IMG/VR virus record: IMGVR_UViG_3300036853_000241
Span: 1-40,702 of that record
Reading direction: 5' to 3' (one strand)
Origin: a virus
DNA: 40,702 nucleotides
Below the pieces are notes generated by a model. It did no database searches, was not told the origin of the DNA, and saw nothing but the letters and a program-made list of their open reading frames with translations. Shown here in pieces: positions 7,011 to 40,702 of the stretch; the stretch's first letter is position 1, and each line of letters starts with the position of its first letter. A program made the translations under genes and the position numbers.

Positions 7011-7384
7011 AAGACGACACCAAGCAATACCGCACGATCGACAAGTTCGATCGACTGATGGGCGCACTGGTCGGACTGCCCGACGTGACGCACACCAAGC
7101 CAACCACCTGCGCTGTTGTCTCGCCCCTGATCGGCGAGGCGCAGACGTTCATCATCCAGACCTATCGCCAGCGTGAAGTCGGCGACACGATCTTCTTGCA
7201 GTACGTCGACGGCGAGGGCAGCGTCCGCATCGCGATCCCGCCCGAAGTGGCCGACGCGATCGCACGTCAGCGAGACGCACTCACGAGCAAAGTCCGCAAG
7301 CGAGTCGCACGCGACCAGGCCGCGGCACGCAAGGCGCGCGGCGAGCGGCCGGCGTTCCTGAAGAAGAAGGGCCAACCGAAATGA
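7007..7384 (+). CDS. Hypothetical early protein
   Basis: 125 residues, unrecognised. It begins with GTG overlapping the upstream TGA and has AAGGAG ribosome sites in the preceding codons. The N-terminal 85 residues look like a compact beta-rich domain (TFIIQTYRQREVGDTIFLQYVDGEG cut here as description), with a basic Lys/Arg-rich C-terminal helix that could bind nucleic acid. Its stop overlaps the ParB-like gene, so the two are probably made together. Confidence 0.65.
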   Translation: MKDDTKQYRTIDKFDRLMGALVGLPDVTHTKPTTCAVVSPLIGEAQTFIIQTYRQREVGDTIFLQYVDGEGSVRIAIPPEVADAIARQRDALTSKVRKRVARDQAAARKARGERPAFLKKKGQPK

Positions 7385-8481
7385 GCAAGCAACGCGAACT
7401 ACCGACCGCGAGCCTCTCGCTCCACCCCGAAGCGGGAGTCGTTCCCGAGATGCCCGAAGATCAGTTCAAGCTGTTCCTGGCGGACATCGAGAAGAACGGC
7501 ATTGAAGACCCGCTCGCCGTGTTGCCCGGAACGAAGATCGTCATCCGCGGCCGGACTCGGTTGCGCGCCGCCAACGTCCTCAACCTGCCGTCGGTCCCGG
7601 TAGTCGATGCGGACCTGCGCGGGCAATCGCCGGCGATGTACATGATCCGCGACGCCGTGCTTCGCCGCCAGCTCACCAAAGATCAACGCGCGGCCCTGGC
7701 TGCCGAGATCGAAGAGGACCTCACCAAAGCGGCGAAGGAGCGACAGCGGGAAGGCGGCAAGAAGGGGGCAGCAACCGCCGGACGTGGGCGTCCGAAGCAG
7801 GGCGATAATGGGGTTGTGGCGAATTCGCCACAACCCAAACCGGCTCCGAAGTCCCGGGACACCGCCGCGGCGATCGCCGGCGCGAAGCCCCGGGCCGTGT
7901 CCGACGCGAAGAAGTTGAAGAAGGTAGACCCCAAGGGATTCGAGCAGGTGAAGGCCGGTACCGTCACGCTCGCCGCGGCGAAGAACGCCGCGGGCATCAC
8001 CACGCCGAAGAAGGATCCCGCACCGTCGACACAACCGGCCGGGACGCCCCTTGATACCATCCAGAATTTCCCCACCGAGGCTCTCGCACCTCTGGCTCTC
8101 AAAGGCGTCCGCACTGTCGAGGACCTCGACGAGCAGCTCGCGGCCCTCCGCAAAGAGAGGGGCCGCAGCAGCGCCACACGCACCCATGTCCTGAGCAACC
8201 TGATCCCTGAGAACACGATGCTCGCCTGGAAGGCAGGCGACGCGCTGATTGATCATTTCGGGCCAACGAAGCAGCCGCCCAAACCCCCGCCTGCTCCGAA
8301 GCCATCCGATACCCCGCACGAACTCAAGCCCTGTCCCTTCTGCGAATCGTCGAACGTGGAGTACGTCAAGGGCCTTGGGATGTGCGTCATGTGTCATGAG
8401 TGCGGCAGCAACGGGCCGCGGAAGACGAGTGAGGTCGCCTGTTGCGTCGCGTGGAACAAAGCGCCGAGGGCCAAGAAATGA
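7381..8481 (+). CDS. ParB/Srx-like protein fused to Lar-type zinc domain
   Basis: 366 residues. Residues 1-115 look like a ParB/sulfiredoxin-fold N-terminal domain: a conserved NGIEDPLAVL turn, then VIRGRTRLRAANVL in place of the usual GxHR motif, followed by LRRQLTKDQRAALAAEI. A long Lys/Ala/Pro linker with one helical segment (AVSDAKKLKKVDP...) follows. Residues 315-366 match the Lar restriction-alleviation zinc module: LKPCPFCESSNVEY (C318, C321), CHECG (C338, C341) and the final AWN. The fusion may combine DNA binding with anti-restriction or host-factor control. It is coupled to the neighbours by 4-bp overlaps. Confidence 0.8.
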   Translation: MSKQRELPTASLSLHPEAGVVPEMPEDQFKLFLADIEKNGIEDPLAVLPGTKIVIRGRTRLRAANVLNLPSVPVVDADLRGQSPAMYMIRDAVLRRQLTKDQRAALAAEIEEDLTKAAKERQREGGKKGAATAGRGRPKQGDNGVVANSPQPKPAPKSRDTAAAIAGAKPRAVSDAKKLKKVDPKGFEQVKAGTVTLAAAKNAAGITTPKKDPAPSTQPAGTPLDTIQNFPTEALAPLALKGVRTVEDLDEQLAALRKERGRSSATRTHVLSNLIPENTMLAWKAGDALIDHFGPTKQPPKPPPAPKPSDTPHELKPCPFCESSNVEYVKGLGMCVMCHECGSNGPRKTSEVACCVAWNKAPRAKK

Positions 8482-9351: not shown

Positions 9352-9672
9352 ATGAAGGCGAAACACACAAAAGGACCGTGGGCCGTTGAGAACGTGAACT
9401 CAGACGCACTGCACGACGTGATTATGGATTACCAGATTCCCGGCGCGGGCTTCCCATGTCTTGTCGCCACGGTGTTTGCTGACGATGATCCGCACCGGCC
9501 GGGTGACATTTCGAACGCCGAGGCCGAAGCGAACGCCCGATTAATCGCCGCCGCTCCGGATATGCTCGCTGCCCTGGAGGATGTGGCCACTGCGTGCGAA
9601 GGAACCGCAATTGTGCCCGTCTCTACCATTCTTCCGGCCGTGCTCGCCGCCTTAAAAAAGGCGAACCAATGA
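9352..9672 (+). CDS. Widespread phage protein of unknown role (GPW...LIAAAPDMLAAL type)
   Basis: 106 residues. It matches a very common phage hypothetical family by its pattern: HTKGPWAVE at the N-terminus, a variable middle, then AEANARLIAAAPDMLAALEDV. The function of the family is not known to me. GAGGAGATGCG precedes the ATG. Stem-loop elements flank it on both sides, so it looks like one unit of a string of small cargo genes. Confidence 0.8.
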   Translation: MKAKHTKGPWAVENVNSDALHDVIMDYQIPGAGFPCLVATVFADDDPHRPGDISNAEAEANARLIAAAPDMLAALEDVATACEGTAIVPVSTILPAVLAALKKANQ

Positions 9673-9697
9673 CCGCTTGCTCTCATAGCAACCGGTC
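9671..9697. repeat. Stem-loop element 4
   Basis: Arms GACCGCTTGC and GCAACCGGTC pair over ten positions with one C-C mismatch. The loop is TCTCATA. It starts within the stop codon of the upstream gene and lies just before the AAGGAG ribosome site of the gene at 9719. This is the best-paired of the intergenic copies. Confidence 0.75.
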
Positions 9698-9718
9698 GAG
9701 AACCAAGGAGAAGCCGTC

Positions 9719-10201
9719 ATGCAGGTGATCACGATCAAGCCCGAATGGCGAACGAGCACGGTGATTGCACTGTGTCAGCACATGCGTGACGCGCAGGACT
9801 TCGCGGCGATGCCGATTCTGGCCGACGCTCTGCAAGACGCGGACTGCGATAACGAGAATTTGTTGCAAGTGCTTCGTTTCGGATCTGGCAACTACGCCGA
9901 AGACGCGGCGATCGTGGCGATGATCAAGAGCCCCGATGCCGCCACCTCGGTTCGCTGGCTCCTTGCGTTTGCCGACGCCCACGATGGTTCCGGGTATGAG
10001 GACCATTATTCCCGGAAGTGGACATATCAGGACTTCATGGAAGCCGCCGCGAATTACCTTCGGACTGGTGACTACATCACCGGCGGAACCGAGCTCGAAG
10101 CCGAGAGTGTGCCTGACGTGTTCTGGGATCATTACCAAGCCATAACGGGTCAGCAAGTGCCGGAGTCGAAGCGAGGCAGCTTCTTCTCCTGCTCGTGTTG
10201 A
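9719..10201 (+). CDS. Hypothetical protein
   Basis: 160 residues, acidic and helical, ending in a Cys-rich tip (FFSCSC). The segment AAMPILADALQDADCDNENLL recalls the ADWLEE motif of TIGR02996-type domains typical of Gemmata proteins, but the match is partial. AAGGAGAAGCCGTC precedes the ATG. It is flanked by stem-loop elements 4 and 5. Confidence 0.65.
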   Translation: MQVITIKPEWRTSTVIALCQHMRDAQDFAAMPILADALQDADCDNENLLQVLRFGSGNYAEDAAIVAMIKSPDAATSVRWLLAFADAHDGSGYEDHYSRKWTYQDFMEAAANYLRTGDYITGGTELEAESVPDVFWDHYQAITGQQVPESKRGSFFSCSC

Positions 10202-10245: not shown

Positions 10246-10701
10246 ATGAGATGGAAGAGGATCATGATGAGGTGGTTCTCTACACGAATCAGGGTGCCCA
10301 TGAAGACCTACAAGCCACCGGAGAGGGATGAAGCGGTCGCCTTTGTGAAGGCGATTCTCGACGGCGACACGAGCGCCGCCGCGGTGTTCGCAGACTGGCT
10401 GGAGGAACACGGCGACAAACGCGCCGTGTTGCTTCGCCGGCGTTGGAAGCTCTGGCAGAAGAAAATCGCGGAAGCAGACAAGCCCGAACGGGTTCTTATC
10501 AGGGATTGGAAAAGGAGGGTACGAGCTGCCCGCGCCCGATCTCTGATTGACCGCACCGACGAGGAGATACTTGAAATGGTCAAAGCGCACATCAGACGCA
10601 GTGCCGACTACTCATTCTGCAAGTACGTCCGCGAAAAGTTCCACGACGAGTACCTTTGGATCCCAATCGACACAAACTCCCAAGCGTACTTGTCGTCGTG
10701 A
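10246..10701 (+). CDS. TIGR02996-type domain protein
   Basis: 151 residues. Residues about 30-68 (AFVKAILDGDTSAAAVFADWLEEHGDKR) fit the TIGR02996 repeat-companion domain, which I know mainly from Gemmata and some myxobacteria, with the hallmark ADWLEE.GD. The rest is basic and helical. The frame is open upstream to 10195, but that would translate the stem-loop element; ATG 10246 after GGGAAGCAAG is preferred. The host-like domain suggests acquisition from a planctomycete chromosome. Confidence 0.75.
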   Translation: MRWKRIMMRWFSTRIRVPMKTYKPPERDEAVAFVKAILDGDTSAAAVFADWLEEHGDKRAVLLRRRWKLWQKKIAEADKPERVLIRDWKRRVRAARARSLIDRTDEEILEMVKAHIRRSADYSFCKYVREKFHDEYLWIPIDTNSQAYLSS

Positions 10702-10850: not shown

Positions 10851-11276
10851 ATGAGCCGCGCGAACATCGATCGCATGTGCAAAGTCTTCGGCCTGGAAAG
10901 TCCTTTCAACAAGAGCGCTGAGGAGATCGCCATGAACCGCACGGCTCGCAAGAAGTCGCAGGGTCGGAAACCGTCGAAGCGCAAGCTGCTTTGCCAACCC
11001 GAGGACCTCTTTGAACCGATGCCGCCGCTGCCGGCCGATGCGATGCCGGCGACGATCGCGGACATGAACCAGGTGAAGGACGGGCTGGATATGCTCGTGA
11101 CGATGGTTCAGCACCTGGTCGACCAGTCCGCACGACCGCTTGCTCGGGCTGCAACCGGTCAAACCGAACGCGTTGTTGAGGTCGTTCACATCGGGGAGCA
11201 GCTCTACCGCGAGATCAAGGCCCGGCTGGAGAAGGATTTTCCGGCCCTCAAAAAGCAGCGGAGCAAAAAGCGATGA
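10851..11276 (+). CDS. Hypothetical basic protein
   Basis: 141 residues, unrecognised. Basic at both ends (RTARKKSQGRKPSKRK near 35-50 and KKQRSKKR at the C-terminus) with a helical middle that could dimerise (NQVKDGLDMLVTMVQHLVDQ). An internal ATG at 10932 is an alternative start. The segment coding RPLARAATGQ (11134-11160) is a well-formed member of the stem-loop family, so an element seems to have been absorbed into the reading frame. Confidence 0.6.
   Translation: MSRANIDRMCKVFGLESPFNKSAEEIAMNRTARKKSQGRKPSKRKLLCQPEDLFEPMPPLPADAMPATIADMNQVKDGLDMLVTMVQHLVDQSARPLARAATGQTERVVEVVHIGEQLYREIKARLEKDFPALKKQRSKKR
11134..11160. repeat. Stem-loop element 6, inside a coding region
   Basis: Arms GACCGCTTGC and GCAACCGGTC are identical to element 4, with the same C-C mismatch. 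The 7-nt loop is TCGGGCT. It lies within the gene 10851-11276. Confidence 0.7.
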
Positions 11277-11617
11277 AACGCAGGAAGCGACCGAAACCGA
11301 AGCTACTCGAATTGCAGATCACCGCCCGGCCCGGCAACGATGGGGAACGAGACGTGTACTTACTCGAGCGCAGCGGGCGGGAAGCGGGGGCTCGATCGCT
11401 CTTCATGTGGCACACCAACGCACCGCTGGCGACCGTTCGCCGCATCATCGCATGGGCCGAGGGGCAGCAAATCCGCATCGTTCAGGATCCGCCGGGAAAC
11501 TTCCATGAAACGACCAAAGCATCTTCGCTACCGCTCCGAGGCTCACGCCCAAATCGAGAACGGGCCGATCGTAAACGAAGCGGACGCCGACGAGCGGGAC
11601 GCCAAAGCGATCGGTAA
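11273..11617 (+). CDS. Small hypothetical protein with overlapping 3' end
   Basis: 114 residues, start ATG overlapping the previous stop. Residues about 10-75 look like a compact beta/alpha domain (LLELQITARPGNDGERDVYLLE..., TVRRIIAWAEGQ). The last 35 residues are Arg-rich and overlap the next gene in another frame, so the real fold probably ends near residue 78 and the tail is a read-on. Unrecognised family. Confidence 0.6.
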   Translation: MKRRKRPKPKLLELQITARPGNDGERDVYLLERSGREAGARSLFMWHTNAPLATVRRIIAWAEGQQIRIVQDPPGNFHETTKASSLPLRGSRPNRERADRKRSGRRRAGRQSDR

Positions 11618-16455: not shown

Positions 16456-19053
16456 GTGTTCGACTGGCTGCGATCGCGATTCGGCTGGGGGCGCGGTACC
16501 GAAACCGCACGCCCCACGCCTCTACGCGCACGCTACGAGAACGCACAGACCACGCCCGAGAACCAACGCTCCTGGTGGGCGGTCGATTATCTCTCGGCGA
16601 AGGCCGCGAACAGTTTCCAGGTCCGCCGGATCCTCCGAACACGAAGCCGCCATGAAGTTGCAAACAACCCCATCCTCTTTGGCGTGGTCCACTCCAACGC
16701 TGACGACCTCATCGACACCGGCCCGACGATCCAGGTCTACACCGACAACGCGAAATACAACCGTCTTGTCGAAGGCTCCTGGAAAGAATGGTGCGAAGAA
16801 GTCGGGTTAACGGAGAAGGTCCGCACGACGAAGCTCGCGAAGTCGGTCGACGGTGAAGGGTTCCTCATCACGAAGACCGTGGAGGACCTCGAACACCCGG
16901 TCAAACTCTACCCCTGCGACGTCGAAGCCGACCAGATCACAACCCCAGTGCCGAAGAACATCGGCGAGCTGTGGGTCGATGGGCTCGAACTGCACCCGGT
17001 TACCGGAAAGCCGACGCACTACACGGTCTTGAAGACTCACCCCGGCGATTACTTCTTCCCCGATTTGAACCCGCTGGCAACCGAGCGGATCCAGGCCCGG
17101 CACGTCGTCCACTGGTTCACCCAGTCGCGGCCCGGCCAGGTTCGCGGTGTGCCGATCTTCACGCCCTCCCTCGACCTCTTCAGCGAGCTGCGCGCGTACC
17201 GTAAGGCCGTGCTCGGCGCCGCGGAGATCGCGGCGGACTACGCCGCGGTGATGGAGCAGGACCGCGAGGCCGGGGCCTACCCCGACGACGACGAGGACAA
17301 CGACGCCGAGTACCAGGCGTTTAGCCGCGTGCCGCTGTCGCGGAAGATGCTGACCGTGCTGCCACCCGGCGGCAAGATGAACCAGCTCGACCCGAAGCAG
17401 CCGACGACCACGTACGAGATGTTCCAGGAGAAGTGCCTCGGCGAAGCGTGCCGGCCGCTCTCCTACCCGCTCAACCTGGCGCTTGGCACGTCGCAGAAGT
17501 TCAACTTCAGCTCGGCGAAGCTCGACCACATCAATTACCGCAACTCCCTTTCGATCGAACGCGACCAGTGCGCGAAGATGGTGCTCGAACGGATCTTCCG
17601 CGCGTGGTTTGAAGAAGCGGTGCTCTGCGGTGCGATCCCGGCATTCCAAGGTCTCACGGTCCCACCGCACGAATGGCACTGGCCGGGCTACGAGCCGCTT
17701 GACCCAGTCACCGACGCGCAGGCCGATCACGAACGGCTCAGTAACGGCTCGGACACGTGGCAACGGTTCTGGGCACGCCGCGGCCTGGATTACCGCGACG
17801 TGTTCCGGCAACAGGCCGCGGAGCAAGAGGAAATCGACACGCTCGGCCTCCAGTTCGGCGAACCGGCGTCGAAGACGATCAGCGAAACGCAGGACCTCAC
17901 CGACGACGGATCCGGCACGCCGCCCAACAAGGCGACCGCACACCGCCAGTTGTGGCGGAACTTCGTTCGTGCACGGGCGGCACTGCTGCGTGCGACGAAG
18001 GACGACAACGGCCAGGAGCACGACGACAAGGGCCGGTTCGGCGAGGGCGGCGGGGGCGGGGAGAAGGACGGCTCCGATAAGGGCGACAAGAAACCGAATC
18101 CCGAACATGCCGAGCATCACGACCGCTGGCGAAAGGAAGACGACGAGGTCGAAACCAAGCGTGAGAAGGAAGACGACGAGGTCGAAACCAAGCGTGAGAA
18201 GGAAGACGCGGTCATCGAGAAATCACGCCAGAAGCAAGAGCAGCAGACGGAGAAGGAACTCGCCAAAAAGCATGCTGCCGAAAACCGCCAGGTCGAACGC
18301 GAGCGTGCGGCCGAAGACAAGAAGACCGAGCGTGACCGCAGCCAAGAAGATAAGAAGGTCGAGCGGTCGCGAGAGAAGGAAGACGACGAACTCGAACGCG
18401 AGGAAGAACGGGAGCGGGAGCGGGTCGGCTACGGCGACAAAGAAGAAGAGATGTATGGCCGCCAGGAAACCGAGGAGAAGTCACTCAAGGAAAAGCACGA
18501 GCAGGCTCACGAATCACTCAAGCGTGACGTTCTCGATCGGGTCGAGAAGGGCGAACTGACGGCGCCGGAAGCCCAAGAATCGATCGACGAGCAAAGGCGA
18601 GTGCAGGAACGGGAACGAAAAGAACTCGTTCAGAAGCACATGCAGGAAGAACAAGACCTCTACGAGACGTTAGAGACCCCCAAGAAGAAGACCGAGATCG
18701 AAGACCAGCGCGACGAGGAAGACGGGGATCGCGAAGAACGCCGGTCAGAAGAAGACAGCAAGCGAGAAGAAAACCGGGAGAAGGAAGACGAAGAGCGCGA
18801 AGAACGCCAATCCAATGAACGCTCCAGCTTGGAGCGTAAGTGGGAGAGGGAAGACGAAGATCGCGAACAACATCGATCGGAAGAAGACGAGGATCGCGCC
18901 AGCAAGAGGGATCAGGAAGACGCCGAACGATACCAACAGCGCAAGAACGATCAGCCTGGCGCGCACGAGGCTTACTACGACGCCGACAACCACAAGCGGC
19001 ACGGCGACACGAAAGCCGACGCGGCGCGGCGGGGGGCGGTCCATGCGCATTAA
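16456..19053 (+). CDS. Portal protein (lambda gpB-like) with long charged C-terminal extension
   Basis: 865 residues. The first ~515 residues are a lambda-family portal: N-terminal helices, NNPILFGVVHSNADDLIDTGP, GEGFLITKT, HVVHWFTQSRPGQVRGVPIF and PLSYPLNLALG are typical. It forms the packaging vertex of the head. The remaining ~350 residues are an almost pure Glu/Lys/Arg/Asp coiled coil beginning after a Gly-rich hinge near EHDDKGRFGEGGGGG, with short repeats such as EDDEVETKREK. Lambda portals end near 530, so this is an unusual addition, perhaps scaffold-like. GTG start directly after the preceding gene. Confidence 0.88.
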   Translation: MFDWLRSRFGWGRGTETARPTPLRARYENAQTTPENQRSWWAVDYLSAKAANSFQVRRILRTRSRHEVANNPILFGVVHSNADDLIDTGPTIQVYTDNAKYNRLVEGSWKEWCEEVGLTEKVRTTKLAKSVDGEGFLITKTVEDLEHPVKLYPCDVEADQITTPVPKNIGELWVDGLELHPVTGKPTHYTVLKTHPGDYFFPDLNPLATERIQARHVVHWFTQSRPGQVRGVPIFTPSLDLFSELRAYRKAVLGAAEIAADYAAVMEQDREAGAYPDDDEDNDAEYQAFSRVPLSRKMLTVLPPGGKMNQLDPKQPTTTYEMFQEKCLGEACRPLSYPLNLALGTSQKFNFSSAKLDHINYRNSLSIERDQCAKMVLERIFRAWFEEAVLCGAIPAFQGLTVPPHEWHWPGYEPLDPVTDAQADHERLSNGSDTWQRFWARRGLDYRDVFRQQAAEQEEIDTLGLQFGEPASKTISETQDLTDDGSGTPPNKATAHRQLWRNFVRARAALLRATKDDNGQEHDDKGRFGEGGGGGEKDGSDKGDKKPNPEHAEHHDRWRKEDDEVETKREKEDDEVETKREKEDAVIEKSRQKQEQQTEKELAKKHAAENRQVERERAAEDKKTERDRSQEDKKVERSREKEDDELEREEERERERVGYGDKEEEMYGRQETEEKSLKEKHEQAHESLKRDVLDRVEKGELTAPEAQESIDEQRRVQERERKELVQKHMQEEQDLYETLETPKKKTEIEDQRDEEDGDREERRSEEDSKREENREKEDEEREERQSNERSSLERKWEREDEDREQHRSEEDEDRASKRDQEDAERYQQRKNDQPGAHEAYYDADNHKRHGDTKADAARRGAVHAH
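18133..18198 (+). repeat. 33-bp tandem repeat in the portal extension
   Basis: Two exact consecutive copies, 18133-18165 and 18166-18198, encode an 11-residue Glu/Lys/Asp-rich unit. They show recent slippage or duplication in the coiled-coil tail. Confidence 0.8.
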
Positions 19054-21406
19054 CGCCGCCCAACGCGACGAGCCCAAAGCCTTCACCGCGGCCAGCGGTG
19101 TCAAGGCCGAGATCGCTGAGCCGACCGCCAAGTCGAAGTCGAAGCTCGCGACCTTCTCCGGCAACGCGTACACCGGCGCGGTGATGAAGCCGGAAGGCTG
19201 GTGGCAAAACATCATCGTGGATCTCTCCGGCGTCCGGCTCGGCTCAAAGAGCCGGCCGGTTCTCCGGCAGCACGATCACAACCAGATCGTCGGCCACACG
19301 ACCGACGTCAAGGTGACCGAGCAGGGGATTGAGATTGCCGGCGTGTGCAGCGGCCAGACCGAGCACGTCGCGAAGGTCGTCGATCCGGCGAAGAACGGGT
19401 TCCCCTGGCAGTTAAGTATTGGGGCTAACCCGGTTCGCACGGAGTACCTCGAAGCCGGCGAGACCGCGACGGTCAACGGCCGCGAGGTGTCCGGACCGCT
19501 CACGATCAGCCGCGAAACCGAATTAGGTGAAATCAGTTTTGTTCCGCTGGGAGCCGACGGGGAAACCTCGGCCACCGTCAGCGCTTCCACACGAAAGGGG
19601 TACACGCCCATGTACCGCAAAATGCTCAAGGCCGCGAAAGCCAATGGTTTGAAAGCCGCGCAAAAGTACGCGGACGAGGACATCGACAAGATGGATGAGA
19701 AGGAAGCCAAGGCCGCACTGAAGAAGTGCATGAAGGCCGAGGACGCCCCGGAAAAGAAAGTCGATGCTGACGACGACGAGGACGCCGACAAGGCGAAAGC
19801 CAAGGCTCGCGCGGCCGACGATGACGAAGAAGACGACGACGAGGACAAGAAAGCCGAAGCGGCGGCTCGCAAACGCGTCCAGGCGGCGCGCACGGCCGAG
19901 GCGAACGAGGTTCGCCGCTGTGAGGCGATCCGCGCCGCGGGGGCGAAGCAAGGCGTCACGCAAATTGAAATCGCCGACGACAAGGGCGCGAAGAAGAAGG
20001 TCAACCTCATCGCCCACGCGATCGAGGAAGGCTGGACGATCGAGAAGACCGAACTCGAAGCCATGCGCGCCGCACGACCCGGCGCAAGCGCCGGCGGTCC
20101 ACACTTCCACATTGTCAACCGGCCGGAAGTCAACGACGCGGTTTTGGAGTGCGCCGTCTTCCAGGCCGCCGGCGACAAGTTCCAGTTGTTCGATAACGAG
20201 TTCTACCGCCGCGAGGACAACGACCGCGGCCGGATCAGCCCGCGCGAGCAAAAGCGGATTCAGGCCGAACTCAACGCCCGGTATCCCGACCAGGTGCAAC
20301 AGGCGGCACACACCACGTTCAAGGGCCGGATCGGACTCCAGCAGCTCCTGACCACGATCGCCGCGGCCAACGGCTACCGCGGCAGCGAAGTGATCCGCGA
20401 CGACGGCGACCTCGCCTCGACCGCGCATTACTGCATGATCCGCGCCGACGGCGCGAGCACCAGCTCGCTCGCCAACGTGCTCGCCAACGTACTCAACAAG
20501 AACATGCTCCAGGGCTACCTGTGGGTTGACGGTGCCTGGAAGGAAGTTTCCTCGATCGGATCGGTCAAGGACTTCAAGCCGACGAAGAACATCAATCTTT
20601 TCGGCGACTTCGAGTTCCAGGACTTGGGCGCATCGGGCGAGTTGAAGAACGCGTCGATCCAGGACCAGGCGTTCTCGAACCAGGCGAGCACGTCGGGCCG
20701 GATCCTGACCATCCCGCGGACGCACATCATCAACGACGATCTCGGCGCCCTCACCACCGTGCCGATGCTGATGGGCCGCGGGGCGGGGCTCAAGCTCAAC
20801 AAGGCGTTCTGGACGAAGTACATGAACCCCGGCAAGGACGACGGCGGCTCCACCGACTTCTACGCGACCACGCACACCATCACCGGCGCGGTCGGCAACG
20901 CCAACTACCAGTCGGGTGCCGGAACGGTCCTTTCGTCGACGAGTCTGAACGCTGCGACGGTGCTCTTCGACAACCAGGTCGACCCACAGGGCAACCCGCT
21001 GGGCATCGATCCGGAGATTCTGCTCTACCCGCCGAACCTGGACAACACGGCGCGGGAACTCATGAACAGCGAGTACATCATCGCGACCGCGCTCGGCTCG
21101 ACCAGCTCGGCCGACGTGCGGCCGTCGAAGAACATCTGGCAGGGCCGGTACCGCCCCGTGAAGGCCCGGTACTTGAACAAGTCGGCGTTTACCGGCAACA
21201 GCACAACCGCCTGGTATCTGCTCGCCAACCCGGCCGTGTGCCCGGTGATCGAGGTCGTGTTCTTAAACGGCCAGCAGACGCCGACGGTGCAGACCGCCGG
21301 CCCCGACTTCCAGTTCAACATGCTCGGCATCACCGTGCGGGCGTTCTTCGACATCGGCGTCGAGAAGCAAAACTTCCGCGGCGGCGTGAAGTCGGCCGGA
21401 GCGTAA
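19043..21406 (+). CDS. Prohead protease fused to major capsid protein
   Basis: 787 residues. Residues 1-185 resemble a prohead protease: LRQHDHNQIVGH (H77) and WQLSIGANPV (S125) are the usual catalytic His and Ser settings. Residues about 190-330 are highly charged (ADDDDEDADKAKAKARAADD-type) and look like a scaffold segment. From about 340 to the end it is an HK97-fold-type major capsid protein by position and composition. ATG 19043 overlaps the portal end by 11 bases. An internal in-frame ATG (19611), preceded by AAAGGGGTACACGCCC, could give scaffold-capsid without protease. Confidence 0.85.
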   Translation: MRINAAQRDEPKAFTAASGVKAEIAEPTAKSKSKLATFSGNAYTGAVMKPEGWWQNIIVDLSGVRLGSKSRPVLRQHDHNQIVGHTTDVKVTEQGIEIAGVCSGQTEHVAKVVDPAKNGFPWQLSIGANPVRTEYLEAGETATVNGREVSGPLTISRETELGEISFVPLGADGETSATVSASTRKGYTPMYRKMLKAAKANGLKAAQKYADEDIDKMDEKEAKAALKKCMKAEDAPEKKVDADDDEDADKAKAKARAADDDEEDDDEDKKAEAAARKRVQAARTAEANEVRRCEAIRAAGAKQGVTQIEIADDKGAKKKVNLIAHAIEEGWTIEKTELEAMRAARPGASAGGPHFHIVNRPEVNDAVLECAVFQAAGDKFQLFDNEFYRREDNDRGRISPREQKRIQAELNARYPDQVQQAAHTTFKGRIGLQQLLTTIAAANGYRGSEVIRDDGDLASTAHYCMIRADGASTSSLANVLANVLNKNMLQGYLWVDGAWKEVSSIGSVKDFKPTKNINLFGDFEFQDLGASGELKNASIQDQAFSNQASTSGRILTIPRTHIINDDLGALTTVPMLMGRGAGLKLNKAFWTKYMNPGKDDGGSTDFYATTHTITGAVGNANYQSGAGTVLSSTSLNAATVLFDNQVDPQGNPLGIDPEILLYPPNLDNTARELMNSEYIIATALGSTSSADVRPSKNIWQGRYRPVKARYLNKSAFTGNSTTAWYLLANPAVCPVIEVVFLNGQQTPTVQTAGPDFQFNMLGITVRAFFDIGVEKQNFRGGVKSAGA

Positions 21407-29145: not shown

Positions 29146-30771
29146 ATGCCACCGCCACTTTCCAACCTGGGGCCGGGCGACCAGATCCCGCGGGATCAGG
29201 AGACCTGGAACGCGCTCATGGCCGCGGGCCGGAAGGCACTCGGCCGTAGCGGCGGCAGTTATGGCGCGACCTCTTTACCCGGCGGTCCAACGGTGCCCCA
29301 AATCACCGCGTGGGTGCGCAACGACACCGGCGACGATCTCTCCGCGCTCACCGTGGTCAAACTCAGCGACCCGCTCGTCGACGCCGAGGAGCTGCCCCAC
29401 CAGGTGCGGGCGCAACCGGCCTTCGCCGGCACGACGCCCGACGCGGCGAGTAATGCGTTTGGAATTCTGCTCGATGCGATCCCCGACGGAGACTTCGGCC
29501 GCGCGATCGTGCTGGGCTGGGCCGTCTGCGATGTGATCGTCAACGACAGCAACCACGGTTACGCCGTGCCCAAATCCGGCTCGACCTCGGCACTGGAGAG
29601 CGCCTCGACCGGCCCGGCGAAGATCGTCCACAAGTACGGCACGACGGGCACCGTGCGGGCCGTAGTCCTGCTCCAGGGCGACGGCGGCGTCGGCAGCAGC
29701 GGCGGCAGCGGCGGCTGCGGGTGGGTCGCCGGTCTCACCGTGGACGATTGCCTCCGCGTGTCCGTCATTTCTGGGGAAGGCCGTTGCGGATGCGTAGACA
29801 CGGAGCAGGCGGAAAGGAAGCTCACTTCGACCGACGGCGAGACGTGGGGCATCTCCCTGGGATCGATTGGCACCGGGACCGGGTGCCTTGACGGCACGAC
29901 ACTGCCCGACGCCGGCACTGTGAGCGGCCTCGGCGGGGGCGGCTGTGCGATTGCCTCAGAGCCGACGCCGATCACGCTCGTCGAGCCGGGCCACTGGTCC
30001 ACGTCGGGCGGCTGGGGTGGCGCGACGCCGGAAGGTGGAACGACGGGGGATCTCAATCTCCAGTGCGTAGACGGCGCGTGGACGTGCTTCTGGGACATCG
30101 TGGGTGGCCCCGTGAATGGCGTACTCGTCTCACAGTTCTGCTTGACCGATGGCAACGGCACGCCCACTGCGCTCATCGTGTTTGATTTCACGGTAGCCAG
30201 TCCCTGCGAGTGGGTGGGCCGACTGAACTTCCAGTTCTTCCCCGACGCGTGTGCCGGGACCGAAGGTCCGACGATCAAGATTTGCGAATCGGATGTGCTG
30301 TTGACGTTCGAGAAGAATTGCTGCGGTTTGCCGAAGTTGACGCTCACGGGTTTTGAGGTGGACGAGGCGTGCTGCGGGGAGACGTTCGCCGCTAGCGTCG
30401 GGGTGACGGTGGTGAAGGACGGCACGACGTATACGGGGGATTGGGATGAGAGCGGCAACGTGTGGAGCGGGGGGTTGACAAGCCCGCCGCCACCGCCCCC
30501 GCCGACGGCGGAATGCTACCAGAGAACTGGACTGGGCACGACGTTTACCCGCATCACTCCCGGAGTGGATCAGTGGAACGACGGCAGCGGCTTCCGTGAA
30601 CTACGCGGCCCGTCGATGCTGGGCGCGGGCAATTGGGAGTATGTGGACGTGGGCGTGTGTATGAGTACGTGGCTCGCGAGCGCTTGGGATGGGACGGGCT
30701 GCAAGACCTTCAGCAGCGGCGGCTCTTGCACCCCGAACACGGTGGAGATTTGCGTTGTGTCGTGCCCGTGA
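29146..30771 (+). CDS. Large Cys-rich tail tip or fibre protein
   Basis: 541 residues, Gly/Thr/Ser-rich and beta-looking. N-terminal ~150 residues resemble a tail-tip scaffold; the remainder has over 25 cysteines (for example CGCVD, KNCCGLPK, DEACCGE, CVVSC at the C-terminus). A Pro-run (PPPPPPP) near residue 448 separates a C-terminal domain that could be the receptor-binding tip. Cys-rich composition is unusual for tail fibres and may reflect disulphide-rich contact with the host surface. Confidence 0.7.
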   Translation: MPPPLSNLGPGDQIPRDQETWNALMAAGRKALGRSGGSYGATSLPGGPTVPQITAWVRNDTGDDLSALTVVKLSDPLVDAEELPHQVRAQPAFAGTTPDAASNAFGILLDAIPDGDFGRAIVLGWAVCDVIVNDSNHGYAVPKSGSTSALESASTGPAKIVHKYGTTGTVRAVVLLQGDGGVGSSGGSGGCGWVAGLTVDDCLRVSVISGEGRCGCVDTEQAERKLTSTDGETWGISLGSIGTGTGCLDGTTLPDAGTVSGLGGGGCAIASEPTPITLVEPGHWSTSGGWGGATPEGGTTGDLNLQCVDGAWTCFWDIVGGPVNGVLVSQFCLTDGNGTPTALIVFDFTVASPCEWVGRLNFQFFPDACAGTEGPTIKICESDVLLTFEKNCCGLPKLTLTGFEVDEACCGETFAASVGVTVVKDGTTYTGDWDESGNVWSGGLTSPPPPPPPTAECYQRTGLGTTFTRITPGVDQWNDGSGFRELRGPSMLGAGNWEYVDVGVCMSTWLASAWDGTGCKTFSSGGSCTPNTVEICVVSCP

Positions 30772-33201: not shown

Positions 33202-34635
33202 GTGCCCATTACCGACCCCACAGACATTGCCGGTTGCATACTCTGGCTCGCCGCCGATGACATCGTCGGTTTGTCGGACGGCGACCCGGTTTCGACGTGG
33301 GCCGACGGCAGTGGTGCCGGTCGCGATGCCACTGGCTCGGGTGGATCGCGGCCGACCTACCAGACCGGCGAACTCAACGGCCGGCCCGTCGTGCGATTCG
33401 ACGGCACCGACGACGAGATGGCCACCGCTTCCGTCGGTGTGACGGATCTCGACTGCACCATCATTGCGGTTCTCTCCCCCGCGAACACCGACGCGGGACG
33501 CTCCCCGGTTTTTGTGGGGAATGACGGCGGGGGCAACGGGTACGGGATCGCGACCTCGACGGGCGGCGGCGCGCCGAACGAGATCGGACGGTTGCGGGGC
33601 GGTATTGCATGGGATTCGACAGGGACGGCGGCGACCACCGGGCCGGCGATTTATTCACTGGTGCAGTCGTCGGGATCGTGCGAGGTGTTTCTCGACGGGG
33701 TTTCGCTCGGCACGTTTTCGAGCGACCCCAATAACCCGACCTCGCGAATTACGCTGGGCAATCACCGGGTCGGAGTATCTAGCGCGAACTGTTGGGCGGG
33801 CGATATCGCCGAGATTGCGATTTATGACTCGCCGCTTGATGCCACCGACCGCGGAGACGTGGAGGCGTACCTCACGGCGAAGTGGTTCGGCGGCGGCGCA
33901 ACCGATACCCCACTCGACGCGCAGCCCGGAACGCTCACGCTCGCCGGTGCATCCGCGACGTTCGCGATCGGCTTCGCGGGTTCGCCCGGCACGCTGACGC
34001 TCACCGGATCCGCGGCGGGGTTTGATTGCGGCTTCGCGGGTTCACCCGGCAGTCTCACGATCAGCGGGCAGGCGGCGACCTTCGCGCTGACGCTGGTCGC
34101 TTCGCCGGGTGCGCTGACGCTGACGGGATTTGCGGCCACGCTTGTTGATAGCGGCGCGGCCGAAGCGGTTCCCGGTGGCGTCTTCCGCCGGACGCTGCGG
34201 ACCTGGTCGAGAACAATCGCGCGGCAGCCCGTGACACTGGACCGGACCTTTAGCCGGTCGCGGCCGACCCTGAAACGCGTGTGGAGGTATGACCCAATGG
34301 CACTGGCAACCGAAAGCGGCGAGGCCCTGATCGCTGCGGAATCCGACGATCGCGAATACGGATTCGACTGCTCGCACGCCCCGGAGCTGGCGACCGGTAC
34401 CGGAATCACGATTTCCTCCGGCGCGATCCTCGGCGGCAGCGGTCTCTCCTTTGGCACCCCGACGGTGCTCGCCGCGGACTTCGACGACATCCCCAGCGGC
34501 AAGGGGCTGTCCGTGCGGATCTACGACGGCGACGCCGGGACCACGTACAAGCTCGCGATGCGAGTCACGCTCTCGAACACCCGAACTTTTGTCGTGCCGG
34601 GCCGACTGAAGAAAGTCGCCGATTACGACACGTGA
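33202..34635 (+). CDS. Lectin-domain tail fibre with 20-residue repeats
   Basis: 477 residues, GTG start. Residues 1-230 fit a LamG/concanavalin sandwich: CILWLAADDIVGLSDGDPVSTWADGSG, RPVVRFDGTDDEM, SCEVFLDGVSLG, AEIAIYDSPLDATDRGDVEAYL. Four 20-residue PGTLTL...FAGS repeats follow (60-bp period). From residue 366 (ATG 34297, preceded by GGAGGT and ACCCA) a separate beta domain starts (MALATESGEALIAAESDD). The internal start could produce this domain alone. Likely binds a host surface glycan. Confidence 0.75.
   Translation: MPITDPTDIAGCILWLAADDIVGLSDGDPVSTWADGSGAGRDATGSGGSRPTYQTGELNGRPVVRFDGTDDEMATASVGVTDLDCTIIAVLSPANTDAGRSPVFVGNDGGGNGYGIATSTGGGAPNEIGRLRGGIAWDSTGTAATTGPAIYSLVQSSGSCEVFLDGVSLGTFSSDPNNPTSRITLGNHRVGVSSANCWAGDIAEIAIYDSPLDATDRGDVEAYLTAKWFGGGATDTPLDAQPGTLTLAGASATFAIGFAGSPGTLTLTGSAAGFDCGFAGSPGSLTISGQAATFALTLVASPGALTLTGFAATLVDSGAAEAVPGGVFRRTLRTWSRTIARQPVTLDRTFSRSRPTLKRVWRYDPMALATESGEALIAAESDDREYGFDCSHAPELATGTGITISSGAILGGSGLSFGTPTVLAADFDDIPSGKGLSVRIYDGDAGTTYKLAMRVTLSNTRTFVVPGRLKKVADYDT
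33925..34140 (+). repeat. Four 60-bp repeats in the lectin fibre gene
   Basis: Units with a strict 60-bp period encode a 20-residue motif starting PG(T/S/A)LT and ending with a FAGS-like turn. The copies diverge, so they are not a recent expansion. They may form a stalk between the lectin and C-terminal domains. Confidence 0.75.
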
Positions 34636-34680: not shown

Positions 34681-35262
34681 ATGCTTCGCCCAAGTGCCCT
34701 CTGTCTCCTGCTCCTCCTGCCCGCGATCGCGGCCGCGCAGGATCCGCCGAAGCCGACGCCGGCGTCGATCGACCAGCTTATCGAACGCGTGCTGTCCATT
34801 CGCAAGCAACGCGCCGACCTGGACAAGCAGGAGGCCGCGGCCGTCGCCGAGTTGAAGGCCCGGCAGAAGGAGCTTCAGGACAAGCTCGACCAACTCGGAC
34901 TCAACACCCCCCCTGCCCCACCGCCGGACACCCGGTTGCGGGACAAACTCAAGACCGCGCTGGATCTGGACAAGGGACAGAAAGCCGACGTGACGCAGCT
35001 CGCCGCGGTCTACGACCAGGCCGCGACCGTCGCCGGCGACAAGACCATCACGACCACCAGCGAACTGATCTCCCGCGTGCGGGCGGTCTCCGACGGGCTG
35101 CTCGGCGACAACGCCCTGTTCAATCTCCGTGTGGCCGTCGGCGAGGAGCTGCTCGCCGCGATCGGAATGACTTCAGATGAACCCATCACCGACGCGCAGC
35201 GGAAACGCGCGGCAGACCTGTGGCGGAACACCGCGGCCATCCTGAAGGAACTGGCAAAGTAA
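34681..35262 (+). CDS. Exported coiled-coil protein
   Basis: 193 residues. A clear signal peptide (residues 1-20, LCLLLLLPAIAAAQ with cleavage after AAA) is followed by a coiled coil (IDQLIERVLSIRKQRADLDKQ...LQDKLDQLG) and a helical C-terminal part. It starts at ATG 34681 with leader GGAATCGCCCATG. It leads a run of exported and membrane proteins before the integrase, where lysis genes would be expected. Spanin-like action is possible, but no lipobox or known spanin motif was seen. Confidence 0.65.
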   Translation: MLRPSALCLLLLLPAIAAAQDPPKPTPASIDQLIERVLSIRKQRADLDKQEAAAVAELKARQKELQDKLDQLGLNTPPAPPPDTRLRDKLKTALDLDKGQKADVTQLAAVYDQAATVAGDKTITTTSELISRVRAVSDGLLGDNALFNLRVAVGEELLAAIGMTSDEPITDAQRKRAADLWRNTAAILKELAK

Positions 35263-35319
35263 ACCGCGACGGAGCGCGGATCACGATAGACCCTGAATTC
35301 AACCAAGAGGAATCGCCCA

Positions 35320-36510
35320 ATGAGTTCCGATCCGACCGAAGTTCCGCAAGCGAAATGGTACACGCCGCTGAAGCCGTACCTGCCCTGGCTCATCCGCATC
35401 GCCGTCGCCTTTGCGATCGCCGCCGCGACTCACTACGGCTGGCCGCCCGAAGTCGTCCAGATCATCAAGGAAGTTCCGATCGCGGTCGTTCAGCAGGACC
35501 TCCAACCCGAGCTGACGGAGTTCAGCCCCACGCAAGGCTGGATCCGGGACGCCGACGCGATCGCCGCCAACCTGGACGAAACCAAGACGCTGCACTTCGA
35601 ACGCACGCCGGCGGGCAAGGTGGCACTCGGCGACGAGGACGTGTTCCTGTGGCGCGCGGTGCGGAAGGTCAACAACCGCGGCCCGCCGTGGTATCCGAAC
35701 GTGAACCAGGAGAGCGTCGGTTGCTGTGTGGGGTGTGGCTGGAAGCATTCCGCGGACATCGTCCAGGCGACCGCGATCGCCAGCGGCAAGCGGTTCGAAT
35801 GGAAACCGGTCAGTGTGGAAGTGATCTACGCCGGCTCCCGCGTCGACGTCGGCCGCGGACAAATCTCCGGCGACGGCTCGATGGGCGCGTGGGCGCGGGA
35901 GTGGTCGCAGTCGCAGGGCGGTATCGCCGCCATGCAGAAATACGATTCGGTCGACCTCTCGAAGTTCAGCCCCGCGCGTGCCCGCGACTGGGGCCGGCGC
36001 GGGATCCCGCCCGACGTCGCCGCGGCCGCGAAGGAACACCCGGTCAAAGGGTGCGCGCTGGTGAAGTCGTGGGCCGACGTGAAGCGTGCAATCCAGCAAG
36101 GCTACCCGGTCGCCGTATGCAGCGACCAGGGTTTCACGATGGGACGCGACGCGACCGGCCGCGCACGTCCGCAAGGTTCGTGGAGTCACTGTATGTGCAT
36201 CTGCGCGGTGAGGACCGCGGCCGACGGTCACACGGAAGGTGCGTTCATTTTGAATAGCTGGGGCGACAACGCACACACCGGCCCGGTATGGCCGGAGGAT
36301 GCCCCGGTCGCCGGATTCTGGGCGGATGCCGCGGTCGTCGATCGCATGGTGAAGCAAGGCGATTCGTTCGCCCTGGCTGACGTGGCCGGATTCCCGGCAA
36401 GAAAGGTTTTGCCCGATTGGTTCGTGAGGGAAGTGCAGCCGGAGCGTTTCCGGCCGCGCGATCCTTTTGTCTTCAAACGTGAGTTCGCCCAATGTTCACT
36501 CGCTTTTTGA
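35320..36510 (+). CDS. Membrane-anchored papain-like cysteine peptidase
   Basis: 396 residues. Residues about 18-41 (YLPWLIRIAVAFAIAAATHYGW) form a transmembrane anchor. The core follows the papain (C1) plan: NQESVGCC, with Q130 and nucleophile C136 at the family spacing; SHCMC with H290 as catalytic His; LNSWGDN with N312, the classic NSWG. It would act outside or in the membrane-facing compartment. Phages rarely carry such peptidases. It could cut host envelope proteins during release, or process virion parts. The late leader GGAATCGCCCAATG precedes it. Confidence 0.8.
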   Translation: MSSDPTEVPQAKWYTPLKPYLPWLIRIAVAFAIAAATHYGWPPEVVQIIKEVPIAVVQQDLQPELTEFSPTQGWIRDADAIAANLDETKTLHFERTPAGKVALGDEDVFLWRAVRKVNNRGPPWYPNVNQESVGCCVGCGWKHSADIVQATAIASGKRFEWKPVSVEVIYAGSRVDVGRGQISGDGSMGAWAREWSQSQGGIAAMQKYDSVDLSKFSPARARDWGRRGIPPDVAAAAKEHPVKGCALVKSWADVKRAIQQGYPVAVCSDQGFTMGRDATGRARPQGSWSHCMCICAVRTAADGHTEGAFILNSWGDNAHTGPVWPEDAPVAGFWADAAVVDRMVKQGDSFALADVAGFPARKVLPDWFVREVQPERFRPRDPFVFKREFAQCSLAF

Positions 36511-36902
36511 ATTTCGTAATCGCGTGTTTCGTGCTCGCGATCTTGGCCCTGTTCGCTCGCGCGGCCGAGCCGCCCAAAAGTGAATGCCCCAAAGAATGCG
36601 AGATGCGAGCGAAAGCCGCGTTCGCATTCGCGAAGGAGAAGGCCAAAGCCGAAGCGAAAGCCGCGACGACCACGGCTCCCGCTCCCAAGCCGAAGACGGC
36701 CGAGCCGAAGAAAGTCGGCTGCATCTGCGGCGATAACTGCCCGTGCGCCGCGGGTGATTGCCCGGCGAAGTGCCCGGTCGCCAGCGGGATCGCGGCCGTG
36801 GGGAAACTGACGCCGCCGAAGCCGGTTGTTGTCGTGCGGGCGCAGCACTACGAACGGCGCTGCTTCAACGGCTCGTGCTACTGGGTTTTGGTCGACGACT
36901 GA
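36492..36902 (+). CDS. Small exported Cys-rich protein
   Basis: 136 residues, ATG 36492 overlapping the peptidase gene end by 19 bases. Signal peptide (FVIACFVLAILALFARAAE), then an Ala/Lys-rich linker and two Cys groups: CPKEC, CICGDNCPCAAGDCPAKC, ending ERRCFNGSCYWVLV. The cysteine density resembles small disulphide-rich secreted proteins. Translational coupling suggests a partner of the peptidase, such as inhibitor, activator or substrate; this is inference. Confidence 0.6.
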   Translation: MFTRFLNFVIACFVLAILALFARAAEPPKSECPKECEMRAKAAFAFAKEKAKAEAKAATTTAPAPKPKTAEPKKVGCICGDNCPCAAGDCPAKCPVASGIAAVGKLTPPKPVVVVRAQHYERRCFNGSCYWVLVDD

Positions 36903-38269: not shown

Positions 38270-39382
38270 ATGCCCCAAAAGCCTAAGAAACCAGCGCCGG
38301 AACCGGATGCGCGCAAAACTCGCGCATCTCGGAACACCTTACGCCAACAATCTAAACTAAGTCAGCCCGAGAAGGTTGAAGGGGGAGCCGATGCGCGTGT
38401 AAATATTGCCTGCCACGAGTCACACCCGTCGCCCGCGCCTGCCCCAAGCCCAACAACCTTGTACACAATCAACCGACTTCGCGAGGACTTCCTCGCCGAA
38501 GCAGGGATGCTTGTTCGCTCCGGCGAGCTGAAGGACGTCACGCTCCGCGGCTACGAGTACCAACTCGGGAAGCTCGACCCGTTCGGCGAATTCCCCGCCG
38601 ACACACTGCGGGTTCACCACCTCCACACGATCCCGTGGACCAACGGGTTCGTGCGCATCTTGAAGCAGCTTTACAAGTGGGCCACCGACAACCGCATCAT
38701 TCCCGTGGACCCGTTCGAGAAGACGAAGATCCCTCCGTGCGGGCGGCGAGAGCGGGTGCTGACGCGCGGCGAACTCGCGAGGCTCTACCGGGCCGCGCCG
38801 CGGGCCTTGCGGGTGCTGCTCTTCGTGCAGCTCCGCACCCTCGCCCGGCCCGGCGAGATCCGGAATCTCACGTGGGGCCAGATCGACTGGGAACGGCGCG
38901 TGATCGTGTTGACGGAATTCAAAGCGAAGGCGAAGCGACGTGACAAGCTCAAGGCTCGGTGCATCCCGCTCCACAAGACCGTGCTCCGGCTGCTGCGGAA
39001 CCTGCACCGCAAATCACCCGATCCGTCCGACGGCGGGCGAGTCTTCTACAATCAGCGGTTTCACATGCCGGTGAGCCGAAGAAGAAAAGCACTCGTGACG
39101 GAGCGGTGTGGGCCGTGGAGCGCCAACGGCGTACGATGCGCGATGCGCAGGGCGCGAGTGGCCGCGGGACTGATGGACGGCGGCGAACGCGTCGTCTGCT
39201 ACACACTCCGGCACACCGGGGCAACCCAAATGTGCCGGCGGAAGATCGACCTGAAGCACATCGCGGAAGTCATGGGCCACGCGCGGACGACGACAACCGA
39301 GCGGTACACCCACCTCGACACCAAAGACATGGTCGCGACGATCGACGAGCTGTTCGCACGGCCGCGAACAAAGACAGGGTGA
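38270..39382 (+). CDS. int: Tyrosine recombinase (integrase)
   Basis: 370 residues. Residues 1-70 are a Lys/Pro-rich extension. The SAM-like core-binding domain spans about 65-155 (TLYTINRLREDFLAE, FVRILKQLYKWATDNRI), then the catalytic domain: R193 (LARPGEIR), R314-H315 (TLRHTGAT), H337 (MGHARTTTT), and the nucleophile Y346 (ERYTHLD). The usual first His of HxxR is Tyr (Y311, VCYTLRHT), an unusual change worth noting. It inserts or excises the genome. Late-type leader GGTTCGCCCATG. Confidence 0.9.
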   Translation: MPQKPKKPAPEPDARKTRASRNTLRQQSKLSQPEKVEGGADARVNIACHESHPSPAPAPSPTTLYTINRLREDFLAEAGMLVRSGELKDVTLRGYEYQLGKLDPFGEFPADTLRVHHLHTIPWTNGFVRILKQLYKWATDNRIIPVDPFEKTKIPPCGRRERVLTRGELARLYRAAPRALRVLLFVQLRTLARPGEIRNLTWGQIDWERRVIVLTEFKAKAKRRDKLKARCIPLHKTVLRLLRNLHRKSPDPSDGGRVFYNQRFHMPVSRRRKALVTERCGPWSANGVRCAMRRARVAAGLMDGGERVVCYTLRHTGATQMCRRKIDLKHIAEVMGHARTTTTERYTHLDTKDMVATIDELFARPRTKTG

Positions 39383-39773: not shown

Positions 39774-39873
39774 CGGGCCGTAGCGCAGCTTGGCTAGCGC
39801 GCTTGCTTGGGGTGCAACCGGTCTAGCCGGTAAACTCTAACAGGCTTGGCGGGTTCGACTCCCGCCCGGTTCG
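39774..39873 (+). tRNA. tRNA-like gene, anticodon GGG (Pro), with long variable arm
   Basis: The 5' half matches bacterial tRNA-Pro: CGGGCCG acceptor, TA, D-arm GCGC...GCGC, then TTGC-loop-GCAA with loop TTGGGGT (anticodon GGG). The T-arm GCGGG-TTCGACT-CCCGC is perfect, and CGGTTCG pairs with the acceptor if one extra base is allowed, or with a 6-bp T stem. The region between has a hairpin CCGG...CCGG and totals about 30 bases, so it is type II-like. CCA is not encoded. The top anticodon-stem pair is C-C. It may be functional, divergent or a chimeric attachment site. Confidence 0.6.
39797..39823. repeat. Stem-loop element 7, the anticodon arm of the tRNA-like gene
   Basis: Arms GCGCGCTTGC and GCAACCGGTC around the 7-nt loop TTGGGGT. 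The right arm equals that of elements 4 and 6; the C-C mismatch lies at the same pair. The left arm resembles element 1. Confidence 0.65.
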
Positions 39874-40641: not shown

Positions 40642-40702
40642 GACGCCGGCGTGTCGATGAAGTGAAGTGAAGCGGCAGTGAAGTGAAGCGGCAGTGAAAT
40701 TT
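40642..40702. repeat. Right terminal direct repeat (61 bp, imperfect)
   Basis: Same 61 bases as 1-61 except G instead of T at four places. 40653-40682 is also an exact inverted copy of 60-89. Two tandem 16-bp units are present, as at the left. Confidence 0.85.

Follow-up and report, generated by a model that had tools for sequence, protein, structure and literature searches.

A stretch of viral DNA of 40,702 nucleotides (IMG/VR record IMGVR_UViG_3300036853_000241), referred to here as the window, encodes a protein that is, by its sequence and predicted fold, a papain-like (C1A) peptidase. Judged from its homologues, it belongs to an unnamed viral family that is present in hundreds of uncultured phages. 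The peptidase gene is adjoined by a conserved upstream partner gene and by genes for membrane or exported products, and in one group of phages its place can be taken by a different protease cassette. We propose that the gene encodes the enzyme of a protease-based lysis module, either membrane-anchored or holin-dependent, and we give this proposal about an even chance. The peptidase features are as follows.

35320..36510, plus strand: predicted C1A (papain-like) cysteine peptidase of 396 aa, membrane segment at the N terminus (homologues, profile, AlphaFold2 model)
35371..35433, plus strand: predicted membrane helix, peptidase residues 18 to 38 (helix in the model, hydrophobicity 1.49; weak)
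35707..35709, plus strand: Gln130 codon, oxyanion-hole position (conserved in 81/81)
35725..35727, plus strand: Cys136 codon, nucleophile position (conserved in 81/81)
36187..36189, plus strand: His290 codon (conserved in 82/82; residue inside a search seed)
36253..36255, plus strand: Asn312 codon, in NSWG (conserved in 80/82)

The open reading frame (35320 to 36510, plus strand, 396 aa) and the positions of Q130, C136, H290, and N312 (in NSWG) agreed with a sequence-only reading of the window made earlier. An antisense ORF of 397 aa (35299 to 36492) spans nearly the whole peptidase gene; thus, ORF length alone is no proof of a gene. Because the antisense frame is open, the case for the peptidase gene rests on codon use, which favored the plus-strand gene over the antisense frame, and on the homologues, which settle the plus strand as the predicted coding strand at 35320 to 36510. 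Structure prediction against C1 peptidases, proposed earlier as a check, bore the assignment out: the AlphaFold2 model (pLDDT, 84.2; pTM, 0.76) matched C1A chains in the PDB, with xylellain (3ois; E, 3.7e-10; prob, 1.00) as the best match, followed by cathepsins and papain. The window protein resembles C1A peptidases (papain, PF00112; xylellain; cathepsins) in its predicted fold and in the papain-family pattern of a Gln-Cys-His-Asn catalytic order, Q-x5-C spacing, and NSWG. It differs from them in that no propeptide domain was recognized and in that, as a single query, it had no match in Pfam (PF00112 included), PHROGs, or NCBIfam; the same query also matched nothing in PDB sequences, INPHARED, or a first IMG/VR scan.

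The first relative (L002), a MAG contig in GTDB genomes, shared 38% identity with the window protein over the best segment. The alignment of these two proteins served as the query for a second IMG/VR scan (seeds, [SQ]W[SA]H[CQ]MC and S[DN]QGFTM), which recovered 207 relatives where the single sequence had found no family; the best 80 of the 207 were kept. When the window protein was aligned with 81 relatives, Q130 and C136 were each conserved in 81/81 sequences (one row being cut at its 5' end), H290 in 82/82, and N312 in 80/82, with Gln at this position in the other two rows. The conservation of H290 is partly built in by the scan seeds, while Q130, C136, and N312 lie outside them. A 51-member profile matched papain, ficin, and cathepsin chains in the PDB (best E, 2.6e-4), and 23 of the 51 members matched PF00112 at E values of up to 1 (best, 2.7e-9). 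Locus L001 is the window itself; L015, which is cut at its 5' end, is outside the anchor and partner counts given below, and both L015 and L040 (truncated genes) are excluded from alignment A2. In L053 (record G005), one internal TGA was counted in the six-frame match of the peptidase.

The family differs from known C1A peptidases in being phage-borne, in the membrane anchor of about half of its members, and in its conserved upstream partner. Four members queried in turn found no match among the 50,697 sequenced phage records of INPHARED. A survey of the phylum of the MAG that holds the first relative detected the family in that MAG alone (1/398 genomes), and the peptidase is thus no common chromosomal gene in this phylum. 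The same peptidase occurred on four contigs of 109 to 190 kb (L033, L042, L046, and L051), indicating that the family is not restricted to small phages.

The N-terminal membrane segment that had been noticed in the window peptidase was present but weakly hydrophobic (Kyte-Doolittle mean, 1.49 over 19 residues). The membrane link exists in the window peptidase and its closest relatives, but it is no general feature of the family, in which 39 of 81 assessable proteins have an anchor. The other 42 (best 80 of 207 relatives sampled) contain no membrane segment and start approximately 4 to 22 residues before the conserved core. The anchor changed at least four times on a tree of 51 members. A charge bias predicting an N-in/C-out orientation was observed in 18 of 23 anchored proteins; one was reversed, and four, including the window protein, were ties.

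The genes that surround the peptidase gene in the window are as follows.

33202..34635, plus strand: LamG/Gp77-like tail protein, upstream of the cassette (context)
34681..35262, plus strand: partner gene, family F1, 193 aa, signal-peptide-like start, helix 30 to 72, C-terminal helical bundle 84 to 192 (same family adjoins the peptidase in 40/82 loci; model pLDDT, 88)
36492..36902, plus strand: predicted exported Cys-rich protein, 136 aa, 19-nt overlap with the peptidase gene (sequence read; no F9 model match)
38270..39382, plus strand: integrase, downstream (context; PF00589, E, 2.6e-24)

A partner gene, whose product is predicted to be exported and to end in a helical domain, was found upstream of the peptidase in all 81 readable loci, 73 of which had good sequence support. 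Two families account for most of them, namely F1 (40 loci, window included) and F2 (30 loci), with position -1 in 67/70; they are homologous via the C-terminal domain (hhalign probability, 95.5; E, 1.4e-8). The F1-like partner frame of L009 was missed by the gene caller and was read by eye. Ten further loci encode exported partners of like build, three with HMM support below 0.01: two match the F1 and joint profiles (E, 2e-11 to 1e-7), and that of L073 matches the F2 profile at 0.0025. The profile matches of the other seven were not significant, and these were counted by eye. In L045, a gene at 9490 to 10023 sits between the partner and the peptidase; from its His-rich motifs, read by eye, we take its product to resemble a Kua/TMEM189-type desaturase.

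The model of the window partner consists of a 43-residue helix followed by a C-terminal helical bundle. It gave only generic helical-bundle matches (best Z, 6.7), with no specific known fold, and no match in BFVD at an E value of 0.001 or below. Strict adjacency, the helical partner, and the absence of a recognized propeptide domain from the peptidase would all suit a partner that acts as an in-trans propeptide or inhibitor, the pair forming a regulated protease directed against a cytosolic target or another phage protein. We give this explanation very little credence, because partners start with a signal-peptide-like, membrane-spanning, or lipobox-like segment (read by eye), whereas about half of the peptidases have no such signal; the two would therefore meet only after export.

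Membrane or exported products, as scored by a crude hydrophobicity rule in 51 non-redundant loci, were encoded by 108 of 181 same-strand genes within two positions of the peptidase versus 49 of 664 genes more than three positions away. Exported Cys-rich products, a class that was defined after such genes had been seen, made up 17 of 120 genes at positions +1 to +3 versus 0 of 664 further away. In L056, an exported thioredoxin with a Cys-rich N-terminal part (10909 to 11502; PF00085, E, 1.9e-10) is encoded directly after the peptidase. No match to the HMMs of neighbor families F4, F5, F8, F9, and F12 was detected in the window, and hence no holin is named there. A scan with the window's tail gene at 29146 to 30771 found no relative. 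The compact set of membrane and exported products is thus kept among relatives, but the exit region in which the sequence-only reading had placed the gene is not constant: in one large group, the gene lies between the prohead protease and major capsid genes.

Exported or membrane-held peptidases could also strip receptors from the host surface or block rival phages. The membrane and exported neighbors fit such host-surface remodeling or superinfection exclusion, as does the occurrence of different cassettes in one slot (see below), which is also seen with morons. However, the peptidase is found in very different phages, on contigs of up to 190 kb, with none of seven endolysin families beside it, and it is surrounded by late structural genes and does not stand alone as a moron would. 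We regard this role as quite unlikely.

In the group with partner family F2, the common gene order is portal, prohead protease, F5, F2, peptidase, F8, F9, and major capsid (F18, F16, and F17 were read from their sequences as the portal, prohead protease, and capsid proteins, respectively). Alignment scans with the capsid and protease identified 77 loci with both genes. The papain-like gene was present between them in 65 loci and not in the other 12. In the 65 loci, all peptidases were anchored, F2, F8, and F9 were always present (65/65), and F5 was nearly so (62/65), while F4 was never observed (0/65). The 12 other loci all contained F5 and F4 (12/12 each) and none of F2, F8, and F9 (0/12). 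Removal of duplicates left 63 intervals (53 and 10) or 46 sequence clusters (38 and 8). An exported, trypsin-like protease was also encoded in all 12 alternative loci (DegQ/DegS-like; the two that were scanned matched PF13365 at E values of 8.4e-21 and 1.7e-21). Their slot protein (288 to 290 aa) is unanchored and putatively papain-like, with Q76-x5-C82, H234, and D252-S-Y in the papain order. Profile comparison did not establish it as a papain homologue (weak match; probability, 7%; E, 0.005), and a PDB search was empty. Among 80 loci found with this protein, the trypsin-like gene followed wherever the locus could be read (68/68), as did F4 (57/57); the papain was present in 0/80. The slot thus has two alternative fillings: an anchored peptidase, in which case F4 is absent, or a candidate peptidase without an anchor, accompanied by a serine protease and F4. 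By analogy, such a pattern would be expected of self-exporting versus holin-dependent lysis enzymes.

F4 is a one-span protein of 79 to 117 aa with a coiled tail. When four members were compared with PHROG holins, L018 gave a weak match (E, 0.0088), L029 an E value of 0.31, and two no match; there was no holin match in Pfam. F4, a candidate holin, shares no more than this build and the weak PHROG match with known holins. F4 was encoded within three genes of the peptidase in 23 of 42 loci with unanchored peptidases versus 0 of 39 with anchored ones, and 19 of the 42 unanchored relatives had no F4 within this distance. On the 51-member tree, the association between anchor loss and F4 was not significant (sign test, P = 0.25 to 1); across four anchor changes, F4 changed in the opposite direction in about 2.3 and was unchanged in 1.7.

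The position among head genes in this group is unusual for lysis genes and speaks against the lysis reading. Together with the lack of an anchor in about half of the relatives, it would favor a virion protein, that is, a protease for entry or processing, active at the envelope during injection or while the particle matures. However, a prohead protease is already encoded there (in the window, it appears to be fused to the capsid protein), and anchored forms and exported partners are ill-suited to a particle. A virion role is accordingly very unlikely in our estimation. The apparent fusion in the window is a single 787-aa ORF (19043 to 21406) comprising the head maturation protease and the major capsid protein. 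In L077 (7819 to 8799) and relatives (alignment A7), the prohead protease seems, by eye, to be fused to a C-terminal HAD-like stretch (ISIDYDRTFT...).

Comparison of the 57 predicted proteins of the window with Pfam revealed no usual endolysin among the 25 listed of 27 matched families, as the sequence-only reading had claimed. An endolysin elsewhere in the genome, which that reading had named as the finding that would count against it, was sought over the whole record with seven families, none of which scored over the cut-off. The same seven, namely, Phage_lysozyme (PF00959), Amidase_2 (PF01510), SLT (PF01464), Amidase_3 (PF01520), Peptidase_M23 (PF01551), CHAP (PF05257), and Peptidase_M15_3 (PF08291), were each found over the cut-off in 0 of 42 records (the window and 41 relatives' records of 25 kb or more, mostly fragments). 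Endolysins of other families, such as GH19, GH25, GH108, NlpC/P60, and SleB, or of an unknown fold would escape this search. One sub-threshold M23 match (E, 0.006) was observed in a 1,479-aa frame of the L051 record. In a control of 32 viral contigs of at least 25 kb (selected with a random 15-mer and with a 17-mer extending it, shorter contigs being dropped), Amidase_2 was detected in 3/32 and lysozyme in 4/32, in seven different records. For these two families, the peptidase records differed from the control (Fisher P = 0.0019; P = 0.011 with 32 non-redundant peptidase records, 31 of the 41 relatives' records being in the non-redundant set).

The two ends of the window share a 61-nt direct repeat (1 to 61 and 40642 to 40702; 93% identical), which consists of 16-nt units and is accompanied by an inverted copy next to the left end. 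The window contains terminase, portal, capsid, tail, and integrase genes. On the basis of the end repeat and gene content, the record looks near complete. A tRNA with anticodon CTA (39787 to 39872; ARAGORN; named Pyl by anticodon only) lies 0.4 kb after the integrase gene. TAG is the stop of 6 of the 59 called genes, for which amber suppression would matter. In a single ORF at 7381 to 8481, a ParB-like region is joined to a Lar-like restriction-alleviation domain at the C terminus. A search against Rfam found nothing.

The peptidase might still be an ordinary endolysin in function, a papain-fold enzyme that cuts stem peptides or cross-links with the partner as its targeting domain. CHAP-type lysins are well-known members of the papain superfamily, and CHAP and NlpC/P60 enzymes cut peptidoglycan in this way (PMC10318531). 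Among the BFVD matches of the peptidase model are phage proteins labeled "Peptidoglycan binding-like" or "N acetylmuramidase", and mycobacteriophage Lysin A is matched weakly. However, the nearest folds are those of C1A proteases and not of CHAP or NlpC enzymes; neither the window protein nor its partner showed a peptidoglycan-binding domain; and the alternative cassette of the slot contains a trypsin-like protease. We therefore consider a conventional endolysin unlikely. The earlier suggestion of an exit peptidase is favored by the cassette of membrane and exported products, the absence of the seven endolysin families, and the slot exchange; the anchor is not general in the family, however, and the exit region is not constant.

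For the protease-based lysis module, we propose the following course of events. The peptidase and its exported helical partner would be coproduced late in infection. In the window version, the N-terminal helix would hold the peptidase in the inner membrane with the catalytic domain outside; in relatives without an anchor, the small single-span coiled-coil protein F4, probably a holin, would release it. Outside, the partner may dock to or control the thiol peptidase, and exported Cys-rich or thioredoxin-like proteins may help it. Cleavage of a host envelope protein, or of the peptide moiety of peptidoglycan, by the enzyme would then open the cell.

A possible host is suggested by the protein encoded at 10300 to 10701 of the window, which resembles TIGR02996 (E, 1.5e-6; 27.9 bits, below the cut-off of 29.05). 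The record of L003, the nearest relative, has strong copies of this domain, with E values of 1.2e-17 to 6.8e-19 for the three that were scanned. The model is presumably named after Gemmata obscuriglobus ("G_obs" in the model name), and the domain also occurs in other bacteria. These matches may point to a Gemmata-like planctomycete host. In the older literature, planctomycete envelopes are protein-rich and contain disulfides; our literature search on cystine-rich planctomycete walls and the Gemmata repeat domain returned nothing useful. A planctomycete phage is reported to exit without lysis (PMC10945688), and exit in planctomycetes may thus differ. We tentatively suggest, as a possibility short of an even chance, that a large number of uncultured phages, perhaps of Gemmata-like planctomycetes, have abandoned peptidoglycan hydrolases for exit and instead rely on proteolysis of a protein-rich, possibly disulfide-linked envelope by two interchangeable cassettes. 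One would consist of the anchored thiol peptidase, the exported partner, and Cys-rich or thioredoxin-like helpers, and the other of the unanchored Gln-Cys-His protein, the exported trypsin-like protease, and a holin.

SAR endolysins and holin-endolysin systems use enzymes that cut peptidoglycan. They export a lytic enzyme in two ways, either by a weak N-terminal anchor or, where this is lacking, with the help of a holin, and the present family would share both modes; here, however, the enzyme is predicted to be a C1A-type protease, and F4 is a putative holin. The closest working analogy is the phage cysteine pseudomurein endoisopeptidases PeiW and PeiP, which open a non-murein wall (PMC4592898). 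They differ from the window peptidase in cutting pseudomurein isopeptide bonds, in their Cys-His-Asp arrangement like that of transglutaminases, and in their archaeal hosts. We know of no exported partner of PeiW or PeiP. The C1 fold is already on record in phages, as papain-domain proteins of uncultured Caudovirales in BFVD, most of whose names carry no assigned function. The literature searched on planctomycete phages, papain, and lysis (with subscription journals mostly outside its scope) did not describe the two-gene cassette or its exchange.

If the proposal is correct, exit by cutting proteins instead of the wall would represent a route new to bacterial phage lysis. This route would be widespread in environmental phages, although queries with four members of the family had no match among 50,697 sequenced phage records. 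It would account for the failure to find common families of lysis genes in these genomes, and it would offer enzymes and a host-range clue for bacteria with hard-to-open envelopes. Because cassettes are exchanged naturally in one slot, the idea can be tested directly.
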